From Candidatus Microthrix parvicella Bio17-1 (GTDB lineage: Bacteria; Actinomycetota; Acidimicrobiia; Acidimicrobiales; Microtrichaceae): a DNA stretch of 64,000 nucleotides. The DNA lies in NCBI RefSeq assembly GCF_000299415.1, contig NZ_AMPG01000001.1, positions 620,001 through 684,000 of the forward strand. Reading direction: 5' to 3'. The position numbers and the translations under genes are program-made. Below, one piece after another: positions 11,118-16,878 of the stretch. Every line of letters begins with the position of its first letter. Position 1 is the stretch's first letter. The notes below the pieces were generated by a model. That model worked only from the letters and a program-made list of their open reading frames with translations, did no database searches and had not been told where the DNA came from.

Positions 11118-11672
11118 TTACGACGCCGCCCGCTCATCGGTGGCAGCGCCTGAAACCGCACCGCCGACCTCACCGTTGGACCCTCCCTGGACCTGCACGA
11201 AACCACCGAACAAACGTCGGTGAAAGATCAGCGGCTCGAGGTTGTCACCGGCCACATCGAAGGCCTCAACACGTCCAACCACCAGGTCGTGGTCACCCGC
11301 CGGGTGGATGGCATCGATGGTGCAATCCACCCAGGCCGGCACGCCGTCGAGCAGCGGTGCCCCGCTGACGGGCGCGTCACCATGACTGATCCCCTCAAAG
11401 CGATCTCCCGGCCCGGACATGCGGGCTGACAACTCCAGCTGATGGGTGCCCAGCACGTTGACGCAGAACGAGCCGGTTCGCTTGATGGCCGACCAGGTGT
11501 ACGAGTTGCGTCCTGCGGCAAAACCCACCAACAACGGATCGAGCGACACCGAGAAGAACGAACCCACGACGAACCCAACCGGTCCATCCGACGTTCGAGA
11601 GGTGACGACGGTGACCCCGGTCGGGAAGTGTCCGAGACACTCCCGAAACGCCTCCGCGTCGCTGATCGCCAC
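11118..11672 (-). CDS. Flavin reductase family protein (FMN-binding split barrel)
   Basis: A 184-residue protein of the HpaC/RutF type, which reduces FMN or FAD with NAD(P)H for a partner monooxygenase. The typical pattern is present: FPTGVTVVTSR, GFVVGSFFSVSLDPLLVGF, and the NADH-side segment SFCVNVLG. The start is a GTG at 11672 with GGGAG 8 nt upstream. The C-terminal ~20 residues are a Gly/Ala tail. No monooxygenase oxygenase component is adjacent, so the partner is unknown. It is followed within 5 bp by the gamma-CA-like gene. Confidence 0.85.
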   Translation of the reverse strand: MAISDAEAFRECLGHFPTGVTVVTSRTSDGPVGFVVGSFFSVSLDPLLVGFAAGRNSYTWSAIKRTGSFCVNVLGTHQLELSARMSGPGDRFEGISHGDAPVSGAPLLDGVPAWVDCTIDAIHPAGDHDLVVGRVEAFDVAGDNLEPLIFHRRLFGGFVQVQGGSNGEVGGAVSGAATDERAAS

Positions 11673-12961: not shown

Positions 12962-14410
12962 ATGAGTGACGACGACGCACTGCTGGCGGTGGTCAAGGCG
13001 GATTGCCCCACCTGTGTCATGGCCACTCCCGCCCTTCAGCGGTTGGCCGCACAGGGCGCCTCGCTGCTGAGCCAGGACGACCCGCACTTCCCGGAGGGCA
13101 TTGCCCACGTCACCGACGACACCGACCTCGTGTTGTCGGCTCGGTGGGGCATCGAGGTGGTTCCCACGCTGCTCCGGGTGAGTGACGGCGTCGAGGTCGA
13201 CCGGGTGGAGGGTTGGGACCGGGCACGCTGGGTCGAGGTGTCCGGCATTGACGGCCTGGGCGCCGGGCTCCCCGACCGCCGGCCGGGCTGCGGTTCACTC
13301 ACGCTGGATCCGTCGCGGGCCGACGAGTTGTTGGTGCGGGCGCGCTCGGACGAGTTGATCGGCCGCCGCATCACCCTCACCGCCCTGGAGGACGACGCAG
13401 ATGCCTACGAGGCCAGGGGTTGGAGCGACGGCCTGCCCGTGGTGCCCCCCACCGAGGCCCGAGTGCTCCGCATGTTGGAGTGCACCGACCGGACCCCCGG
13501 CGACGTCGTGGCCATCGTCCCCCCCGACCTCACCCCTGCCACCGTGGAAAAGGTGGCGATCAACGCCGTGCTGGCGGGTTGTCGCCCGGAGTACCTACCC
13601 GTGGTACTGACCGCGGTGGAGGCGGCATGCACCGATGCCTTCAACATGCACGGGCTGCTGGCCACCACCTGGTTCGCGGGTCCGATGGTGGTGGTGTCAG
13701 GGCCGATCGCCCGCGACATTTCGATGAACGACGGCCTGGGTGCGCTCGGGCAGGGCAACCGGGCCAACGCCACCATCGGCCGGGCCCTCAACCTGGTGGT
13801 TCGCAACATCGGAGGGGGTCGTCCGGGCGGGGTCGACCGGGCCACGCTTGGCAATCCAGGCAAGTACACCTTCTGTTTCGCCGAGACGCCCGCGCCGGAT
13901 CCCGACTGGCCGAACCAGGCCACCGAGACGGGCCTCGCTCCCGACACGTCGGCGGTCACGCTGGTTGCCGCTGAGGGGGTGACGGGCATCATCGATCAGC
14001 TCTCCCGTACTCCCGAGTCGCTGGCACGAAGCTTCGCCGAGGTGCTGGCCACCGTCGCCCATCCCAAGCTCGCCTTCATCTTCGACGCCTCACTGGTGAT
14101 CTCGCCCGAGCACCTGCGGGTGTTCCGCGAAGCCGGGTGGAACAAAGCCCGACTGAGGGGGGAGTTGTCCAAGCTGCTCACGCTGGATGGCGCGGATTTG
14201 GTCCGAGGCGCTCGTGACATCGCCGAGGGCATGCCCGAAGGGTTCTGCGGCGGCACGCTGCCAAAGTTTCGCGAAGGCGGCCTGTCCATCTTTCAGGCCG
14301 GAGGCGGCGCCGGCATGTTCTCGGCCGTGATCGGCGGCTGGGCGGCGGGCGACCTGGGATCGACGCCGGTGACGCTGCCGATTCATACGCCCGAGGAGGC
14401 AACCACATGA
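12962..14410 (+). CDS. Thioredoxin-like/large-domain fusion, operon partner of the UGSC selenoprotein
   Basis: A 482-residue protein with a GAGGGGG ribosome-binding site. Residues ~1-110 look like a thioredoxin fold with a CPTC motif (KADCPTCVMATPALQRL) and a cis-Pro strand (GIEVVPTLLRV). Residues ~150-470 are one large conserved domain (SDGLPVVPPTEARVLRML, DLTPATVEKVAINAVLAGC, NDGLGALGQGNRANATIGRALNLV) that I have seen only described as hypothetical. The stop overlaps the next start (ATGA at 14407-14410), so the two products are made together. With a Cys pair here and Sec in its partner, a shared redox function is likely. The substrate is unknown. Confidence 0.7.
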   Translation: MSDDDALLAVVKADCPTCVMATPALQRLAAQGASLLSQDDPHFPEGIAHVTDDTDLVLSARWGIEVVPTLLRVSDGVEVDRVEGWDRARWVEVSGIDGLGAGLPDRRPGCGSLTLDPSRADELLVRARSDELIGRRITLTALEDDADAYEARGWSDGLPVVPPTEARVLRMLECTDRTPGDVVAIVPPDLTPATVEKVAINAVLAGCRPEYLPVVLTAVEAACTDAFNMHGLLATTWFAGPMVVVSGPIARDISMNDGLGALGQGNRANATIGRALNLVVRNIGGGRPGGVDRATLGNPGKYTFCFAETPAPDPDWPNQATETGLAPDTSAVTLVAAEGVTGIIDQLSRTPESLARSFAEVLATVAHPKLAFIFDASLVISPEHLRVFREAGWNKARLRGELSKLLTLDGADLVRGARDIAEGMPEGFCGGTLPKFREGGLSIFQAGGGAGMFSAVIGGWAAGDLGSTPVTLPIHTPEEATT

Positions 14411-15003
14411 CCACCAGGCCCGCTTCGACCGCCGATCCGATTCCAGGCGCTCAGCCCATGCCCGGCGAGCGCACCGTGCTCGATCCCACCGGCGAACGCT
14501 CCGAGGCCATCCGCGAGCTCAGCGCCCGGCCCCCCTCGTTGGACGGGCTCACAGTGGGCCTGCTCGACATCTCCAAGCCCCGCGGGAACGTGTTTCTCGA
14601 CCGCATCGAGGCGGTGTTCGAGGAGCGGGGTATCAGCACCAAGCGCTACCGCAAACCCACGTTCACCAAACCGGCACACCCCGACCTGCGAGCCGAGATC
14701 GCCCGGGAGTGCGGGGCCATCGTCGAGGCGCTCGCCGATTGAGGCAGTTGCACGTCGTGCAGTGTGCACGACCTGGACGATCTGGAGCGACGGGGCGTGC
14801 CGTCGGTGTTCGTGGCCTCAACCGAGTTCATCGACGCTGCCGATACCCAACGGGCAGCCCTGGGGTCCGCGGTGCGTGGTGTCTTCGTGGCCCATCCCAT
14901 TCAGGACCGCACCGATGAGGAGATGGCTGCGTTGGCCGACGGCGCCGTCGACGATCTGATCGCCGCCCTCACCGGTGGACCCTCACCATCTCCGGCCCCC
15001 TGA
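14407..15003 (+). CDS. UGSC-family selenoprotein with in-frame UGA (Sec112)
   Basis: The frame from ATG 14407 meets a TGA at 14740-14742 and continues open to a TGA at 15001-15003. Reading the first TGA as selenocysteine gives a 198-residue protein with ALAD-U-GSCTSCSVHDLDDL, exactly the Sec-Gly-Ser-Cys motif for which the UGSC (seleno)protein family is named. Both halves look conserved: before it, LLDISKPRGNVFLDRIEAVFEE and RECGAIVEALAD; after it, LERRGVPSVFVAST and RGVFVAHPI. A perfect hairpin suited to a bacterial SECIS starts 11 nt after the UGA. A standard gene finder would report two broken pieces. The gene is translationally coupled to the upstream fusion protein. The Sec machinery must be elsewhere in the genome. 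Confidence 0.88.
14740..14772 (+). promoter_or_regulatory. UGA codon and candidate bacterial SECIS hairpin
   Basis: After the UGA (14740-14742) there is an 11-nt spacer, then GTCGTGCA (14754-14761), a GTG loop (14762-14764) and TGCACGAC (14765-14772): a perfect 8-bp stem. The apical loop is 20 nt from the UGA and contains GU, as expected for bacterial SECIS elements recognised by SelB. The stem also encodes SerCys-containing residues, so part of the conservation could be protein-driven. Confidence 0.7.
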
Positions 15004-15435: not shown

Positions 15436-16878
15436 ATGGATTGGTGGATGCCACCCGGCGACGCGTTGGCGAGGCTGGCGTTCACGCGGGGCCTGGCGCT
15501 CGTCTACCTGATCGCATTTGTCGCTGCGCTGCGACAGTTTCGCCCGCTCCTTGGCGAGCGGGGGCTGCTGCCGATCCCCCGCTTCATCGCAATCACCCCG
15601 TTCCGGCGGAGCCCCAGCGTGTTTCACGTGCACTACAGCGACCGGTTCTTTGCCGCTTCCTGCTGGGCCGGCATCGCGCTGGCCACGCTGGCGCTGGTTG
15701 GCCTGGTCGAACGATCACCGATCTGGACCTGGGTGCTGGTATGGGCGACGTTGTGGGCGCTCCAACTCTCCATCCTCAACGTCGGGCAGCGCTGGTACGG
15801 CTTTGGCTGGGAGATCCTGTTGGCCGAAGCCGGATTCCTTGCGATCTTCGTGGGGCCGGCGCACGTGGCCCCGCCGCTGGTGATCATGTGGGCCCTGCGT
15901 TGGCTGTTGTTTCGGGTTGAGTTCGGCGCCGGGCTGGTGAAGCTGCGGGGTGACCGATGCTGGCGCGATCTGACGTGTCTCGATTTTCACCACGAAACCC
16001 AGCCGATGCCCAACCCGTTCAGCCGCTCCTTTCACCGCCTGCCATCCAAGCTGCACCGGGTGGAGGTGCTGGCCAACCACGTCACTCAACTGGTGGTGGT
16101 GTTCGGGCTGTTCGCGCCCCAGCCGATAGCCACTGTTGCCGCGATGATCATCATCGTCACGCAGGGGTGGCTGATGCTCAGCGGCAACTTTGCGTGGCTC
16201 AACCTGCTGACCGCAGTGCTGGCGCTCGGCGCGTTGGACGGGCGGCTTCTGGCATGGCTGCTTCCGGTGGGGCAACCGATCGATCTGTCCAAACCCGCTT
16301 GGTTTGGCATCCTCACCGCTGCGGTTGCCGTGGGGCTGGTGGCGCTCAGTTACCAGCCGGTTCGAAATCTCCTGTCCAAACGGCAGCAGATGAACGCCAG
16401 CTTCGACTCGTTGCGCCTGGTCAACACCTACGGAGCGTTCGGCAGCGTCACCAAGGAGCGGCGCGAGGTGGTGTTCGAGGCCACCGATGACCCAAGCCCG
16501 GGCCCCGAGACCGTGTGGTTGGAGTACGAGTTCAAGGCCAAGCCCACCGACGTGTCCCGACGCCCCCCGCAGTTTGCGCCCTACCACCTGCGTCTCGACT
16601 GGCTGATGTGGTTCGTCGCGATCTCACCGGCCTACGGCGCCGGATGGCTGCAGCCGTTCGTCGAGCGCCTGGCCGCCAACGACCCCGGGACGCGTTCGCT
16701 GCTGCGCCGCTGTCCGTTTGAAGCTGAAGGCCCCGCCTTCGTTCGCGCTCGCCTGTATCGGTACCGGTTCACCAGCCGCGATGAGCGCCGGGCCACCGGC
16801 AACTGGTGGCACCGCACGTACATCCGGGAGTTGATCCGACCCGTCGGGGCGCCCCCGACCCGCTACTCGCCCCGGTAG
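15436..16878 (+). CDS. Lipase maturation factor (LMF) family membrane protein
   Basis: A 480-residue polytopic protein homologous to vertebrate LMF1/LMF2, which help lipases fold in the ER. The bacterial role is unknown. Landmarks: HYSDRFFAASCWAGIALATL near TM2, a conserved loop (NVGQRWYGFGWEILLAEAGFLAIF), RVEFGAGLVKLRGDRCWRDLTCLDFHHETQPMPNP, and a C-terminal soluble domain (LRLVNTYGAFGSVTKERREVVFE). All family blocks are present, so it looks intact. GGAGGAGTAGGAAGG precedes the ATG. Its end overlaps the convergent VOC gene by 16 bp. Confidence 0.9.
   Translation: MDWWMPPGDALARLAFTRGLALVYLIAFVAALRQFRPLLGERGLLPIPRFIAITPFRRSPSVFHVHYSDRFFAASCWAGIALATLALVGLVERSPIWTWVLVWATLWALQLSILNVGQRWYGFGWEILLAEAGFLAIFVGPAHVAPPLVIMWALRWLLFRVEFGAGLVKLRGDRCWRDLTCLDFHHETQPMPNPFSRSFHRLPSKLHRVEVLANHVTQLVVVFGLFAPQPIATVAAMIIIVTQGWLMLSGNFAWLNLLTAVLALGALDGRLLAWLLPVGQPIDLSKPAWFGILTAAVAVGLVALSYQPVRNLLSKRQQMNASFDSLRLVNTYGAFGSVTKERREVVFEATDDPSPGPETVWLEYEFKAKPTDVSRRPPQFAPYHLRLDWLMWFVAISPAYGAGWLQPFVERLAANDPGTRSLLRRCPFEAEGPAFVRARLYRYRFTSRDERRATGNWWHRTYIRELIRPVGAPPTRYSPR

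Follow-up and report, generated by a model that had tools for sequence, protein, structure and literature searches.

A UGSC-family selenoprotein of Candidatus Microthrix parvicella and its thioredoxin-armed partner: a probable selenocysteine-dependent reductase

The genomic stretch of 64,000 nucleotides from Candidatus Microthrix parvicella that was analyzed here (the window) contains two adjacent open frames separated by a single TGA. This raises the question of whether they are one gene in which UGA is read as selenocysteine (Sec) and, if so, what the encoded protein does. The UGSC family concerned was described in marine metagenome work in 2008 (PMC2398784), is known from marine and freshwater metagenomes since that year or earlier, and with 255 sequences in the GOS data is among the commonest selenoproteins of water metagenomes. 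It is also treated in PMC5330540 and was listed in 2026 without a function (PMC13188914). No function is given in these accounts, whereas the gene in the window can be tied to an obligate partner bearing a thioredoxin domain and to the thioredoxin system.

The UGSC gene and its in-frame TGA

The gene lies on the forward strand at 14407-15003. It starts with ATG at 14407, contains an in-frame TGA at 14740-14742 followed directly by codons for GSCTSC, and ends with a TGA at 15001-15003; with the internal TGA read as Sec112 the product has 198 residues, including the motif ADUGSCTSC and, at residues 112-115, the [U/C]-G-S-C family motif. An alternative start is Met18 (14458). The ATG forms an ATGA overlap with the end of the upstream gene, and the same overlapping start is frequent among homologous genes. 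An earlier note on this DNA had joined the two frames into one gene, and this reading holds, as the homology spans the TGA: the translation matches the Pfam model UGSC (PF24696) over residues 23-189 with 149.2 bits (E-value 1.7e-43; cut-off 25 bits) and the NCBIfam equivalog model UGSC_fam (NF041046) with 148.1 bits (cut-off 125), so that it belongs to an already known family, which it matches along its whole length. It shares the motif, the Sec position and the SECIS element with the family. A search of PDB sequences with UGSC gave no match. One copy of the family is present in the host genome (4.2 Mb in 13 contigs, estimated 95% complete). The note had also expected standard annotation to truncate the protein at 111 residues. 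A mechanical ORF call without read-through does yield a 111-residue ORF and a separate 79-residue ORF with a GTG start, but truncation is not inevitable, since genes of this kind are now labeled 'UGSC family (seleno)protein' by NCBI.

The open frame 3' of the TGA is not significant alone, because spurious ORFs abound in this GC-rich DNA. The closest homologues are found in Candidatus Microthrix and other Acidimicrobiia, and a TGA stands at the same codon in all 80 of the closest homologous loci, which come from independent assemblies and whose flanking protein is 55-71% identical; none of these homologues stops before GSC. When the sample was widened to 396 genomes of the phylum, 28 contained a UGSC match; most of these matches have a single in-frame TGA, and some have no stop. 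The position is occupied by cysteine in distant relatives, and the Cys forms examined, from Arthrobacter, Roseovarius, haloarchaea and some Actinobacteria, carry DCGSC.

A perfect 8-bp hairpin had likewise been claimed to begin 11 nt past the UGA, and it is exact: 14754-14761 pairs with 14765-14772 around a 3-nt loop, GUG. Since its folding energy is ordinary in comparison with dinucleotide shuffles (z = -0.73), a codon-level test was used instead. Among 81 sequences the hairpin codons are frozen, with AGT (Ser), GTG and GAC in 81/81 and TGC in 80/81, while the same amino acids near the hairpin are encoded by mixed codons and AGT makes up only 5.8% of the Ser codons of the neighboring gene. 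Against synonymous shuffles the hairpin reached a mean z of -2.87 in the 80 loci, compared with +0.86 for the next stretch as a control. In addition, G-C is replaced by A-U at pair 18-30 of 12 sequences, with U30 present wherever position 18 is A (12/12; Fisher p = 2.6e-11, a statistic that ignores the relatedness of the sequences). On this comparative evidence the hairpin at 14754-14772 is a real bacterial SECIS element that acts at the RNA level.

The Sec insertion machinery predicted for the host by the earlier note was found. A tRNA-Sec scores above the Rfam cut-off and has the anticodon TCA according to ARAGORN, the genes for SelA and SelB are adjacent on contig 4, and that for SelD lies on contig 3 (C3:23101-24048, locus L019), where an in-frame TGA in HGAGUACK marks the Sec form of selenophosphate synthetase. 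An in-frame TGA also occurs in a gene for a TlpA-like lipoprotein on contig 6 (C6:65806-66225; locus L178, TGA at 1573-1575) with the sequence WFWAPHUPAC, and this protein (PHUPAC) is a probable further selenoprotein of the host.

Two other readings of the TGA have to be weighed against these data. It could be an ordinary stop, the real genes being one for a 111-residue protein and a downstream ORF with its own start, as the mechanical ORF calls would have it, or it could be a sequencing error; the persistence of the codon in independent assemblies, the freezing of the SECIS codons, the presence of Sec machinery and the Cys of distant homologues make this extremely improbable. Alternatively, TGA might be reassigned as a sense codon, for example for Trp, without any Sec, which would equally explain a frame that is open across it. 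However, TGA also serves as an ordinary stop in this organism, where it terminates UP, the gene upstream (14408-14410), and UGSC itself. Because the very same UGSC gene ends in TGA, the codon is not reassigned; moreover, the TCA-anticodon tRNA is called tRNA-SeC by ARAGORN, selA, selB and selD are present, and the aligned residue of homologues is Cys and not Trp, so that we assign virtually no probability to reassignment. Homology across the TGA, its conservation in 80/80 loci and the codon constraint on the hairpin take the Sec reading beyond chance, and there is thus strong bioinformatic evidence that 14407-15003 is a true UGSC-family selenoprotein gene whose UGA is read as Sec.

The upstream partner gene

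Although the earlier note read the UGSC gene correctly, it overlooked an obligate partner directly upstream. This gene, here called UP, lies on the forward strand at 12962-14410 and encodes 482 residues that comprise a thioredoxin-like domain, an arm with the motif PGCGS and a core domain. A UP homologue is located directly 5' of UGSC in 80/80 loci. Among the 396 genomes of the phylum, strong matches to the UP core were found in 28, 27 of which also belong to the 28 with UGSC.

The thioredoxin-fold domain (residues 1-96; 12962-13249) contains CPTC at residues 15-18, the cysteines of which are invariant in the alignment. A profile of these residues matches PDB thioredoxins with an E-value of 1.4e-4, and the AlphaFold model superimposes on thioredoxin with a Z-score of 9.5 over 86 residues (rmsd 2.0); a single UP sequence scores below the Pfam Thioredoxin cut-off. 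The arm cysteine, Cys110, is encoded by TGC at 13289-13291, and its column is invariant in 62 sequences (Sec being printed as Cys in this alignment). The core domain follows at residues 130-482 (13349-14407) and has two near-invariant cysteines, Cys207 in 16/16 and Cys305 in 15/16 sequences of an alignment that includes distant homologues. No Pfam match above threshold was obtained for the core in the 62 members scanned, nor any NCBIfam match above threshold for the UP protein of the window, and a fold search with the whole of UP was dominated by its thioredoxin domain.

The gene surroundings of homologues contain parts of the Sec and thioredoxin systems. In at least 10 relatives selB is located immediately 5' of UP-UGSC (loci L042, L044, L051-L053, L056, L068, L075, L083 and L088, at about 700-2400), preceded by selA in some, and selB lies near UP on a Paracoccus plasmid. 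The gene order is trxB-trxA-UP-UGSC in Arthrobacter and UP-UGSC-trxB in Roseovarius, and trxB lies near UP in Variovorax. On plasmids, stand-alone UP cores adjoin Cys-UGSC genes.

UGSC and UP are fused into one protein (UGSC-UP) in Vibrio, Sporomusa and Variovorax, which suggests that the two proteins form a physical complex; in V. boronicumulans a TrxB-like flavoprotein is encoded two genes from the fusion. A UGSC/Unknown_1 fusion was reported in the GOS data (PMC2398784), in which UGSC is likewise joined to a conserved unknown domain, and Unknown_1 may be the UP core. The fusions of Vibrio and Sporomusa (L132:4395-6080 and L133:5323-7047) have MGTS in place of CGSC and adjoin genes for aconitase-X and DUF126; they are a redox-dead branch, perhaps with another job. 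As these fusions lost the redox motif, a non-redox role of the UP core is possible in the two genera.

A second selenocysteine in related bacteria

In 12 related loci TGA stands exactly in place of the UP codon for Cys110, giving PGUGS, and the frame then runs on for roughly 370 residues. In a tree calculated with residue 110 masked, these loci form a single clade (support 100/99), so that one Cys/Sec switch suffices to explain them. The hairpin 3' of this TGA has on average 7.3 of 8 pairs in the Sec sequences versus 5.2 in the Cys sequences, and both inner pairs are fully formed in 12/12 of the former versus 13/63 and 15/63 of the latter. It is weakly favored over synonymous shuffles in the Sec loci (mean z of -1.05 versus -0.25). 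From these sequence features we predict that UP of the 12-locus clade is a second selenoprotein of the operon.

The same motif occurs elsewhere. Other Actinobacteria encode related thioredoxin-like proteins that stand alone and end in a PGUGS tail (L164:1408-1887, L163 on the minus strand, and L179-L187), with one TGA in all nine full-length matches and, in those examined, a SECIS-like hairpin that extends over the stop codon. NCBIfam selenoprotein models did not match the members scanned, and neither the UP-arm motif nor the thioredoxin-tail motif was found in the table of 119 families of PMC13188914. These predicted new selenoproteins would be split at the UGA by current gene callers.

Fold and possible function

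The model of UGSC (pLDDT 88) shows alternating beta strands and alpha helices with five strands in a Rossmann/flavodoxin-like arrangement and places the Sec where a helix begins. A fold search returned generic matches of this type only, without a functional lead. Glycine reductase, a system linked to thioredoxin, contains the Sec reductase subunit GrdB, and D-proline reductase contains the related protein PrdB. UGSC resembles these proteins (PF07355, TIGR04483; see also PMC13188914) in that Sec-Gly-[Ser/Thr] follows a beta strand and is itself followed by a helix, ERxGIP and a strand; thioredoxin and its reductase as electron source would be a further likeness. However, UGSC is much shorter, has another partner protein and occurs in Actinobacteria and haloarchaea instead of clostridia. 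An hhalign comparison placed Sec on Sec over 74 columns with a score of 37.0, a probability of 46% and an E-value of 2e-4 (for one comparison), while the maximum score in 30 column-shuffled controls was 18.1. This alignment provides moderate evidence for a possible link between the Sec module of UGSC and GrdB. No match above the cut-off of Pfam GRDB (PF07355) was found in the host genome.

UGSC and its thioredoxin-armed partner are probably a thioredoxin-driven, Sec-dependent reductase that is similar in principle to glycine and proline reductase. The host SelB and tRNA-Sec would insert Sec at UGA 14740-14742, guided by the downstream SECIS, into the second product of a two-gene operon. As modeled, UGSC would provide a Rossmann-like domain with Sec at a helix N-terminus, similar to the Sec module of GrdB/PrdB, and would bind a small substrate together with the UP core. 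This substrate is probably a carboxylate, a guess based on several plasmid loci that lie among genes for CoA transferases, TRAP/tricarboxylate (TTT) transporters and dehydrogenases; within the window, none of the genes beside the operon names a substrate. Sec, with Cys115 and Cys118 as resolving residues, would attack and reduce the substrate and be left as a selenenylsulfide, and the PG[C/U]GS arm and the thioredoxin domain of UP would relay electrons from NADPH and thioredoxin reductase, so that the selenol is restored. The arm of the host protein carries Cys, whereas Sec is predicted at this position in Candidatus Microthrix-type relatives, where the result would be a two-selenoprotein operon. 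Mammalian thioredoxin reductase has a C-terminal GCUG tail, a flexible arm containing Sec and Cys that serves a redox domain. The arm of UP differs in its motif and in following a thioredoxin domain, and the comparison is an analogy only.

It is conceivable that UGSC is a selenoprotein but a general oxidoreductase of the thiol-disulfide or peroxide type, UP then being a regulator or chaperone of it and not a subunit that binds the substrate. The UxxC motif is typical of thiol oxidoreductases, and a thioredoxin-like fold was guessed for UGSC in PMC2398784. We consider this unlikely, as the modeled fold is of the Rossmann/flavodoxin type and not that of thioredoxin, the strict pairing of one UP with one UGSC and the fusions to a large conserved core domain fit an enzyme, and the carboxylate-related surroundings of the plasmid loci speak in the same direction. 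A UP core that is a hydratase like class I fumarases, with UGSC as a redox accessory, appears very unlikely. Its starting point is the top Foldseek match of the UP model, a Leishmania class I fumarase (E-value 1.8e-3, probability 0.51), along with the aconitase-X genes beside the redox-dead fusions, but a TM-score of about 0.2 is too low for trust and hhalign against class I fumarases found nothing (probability 0.5%).

Since UGSC always lies beside a thioredoxin-armed UP that is itself a predicted selenoprotein in related bacteria, the two together probably make up a selenium-dependent reductase that is so far undescribed. We propose only tentatively, and with some doubt, the wider claim that it is a third Sec-dependent reductase beside glycine and proline reductase, and that the UP thioredoxin-arm subunit (PG[C/U]GS) and the stand-alone PGUGS-tail thioredoxins are uncatalogued selenoprotein families. 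In the literature on selenoproteins of Microthrix and Acidimicrobiia we found nothing about a UP-UGSC system, and in the literature searched we found no description of the obligate pairing, the Cys/Sec exchange in the arm or a coupling to thioredoxin reductase. The obligate partner, the Cys/Sec exchange and the trxB neighbors offer a concrete and testable electron path for a common selenoprotein.

Two further genes lie on either side of the pair in the window. A homologue of lipase maturation factor (LMF1) is encoded downstream at 15436-16878 on the forward strand; it is probably unrelated to the operon, as it has no match in the homologous loci. Upstream, at 11118-11672 on the reverse strand, lies a gene for a flavin reductase-like protein, and in 13 loci genes resembling it, again on the opposite strand, occur in the vicinity of the operon.
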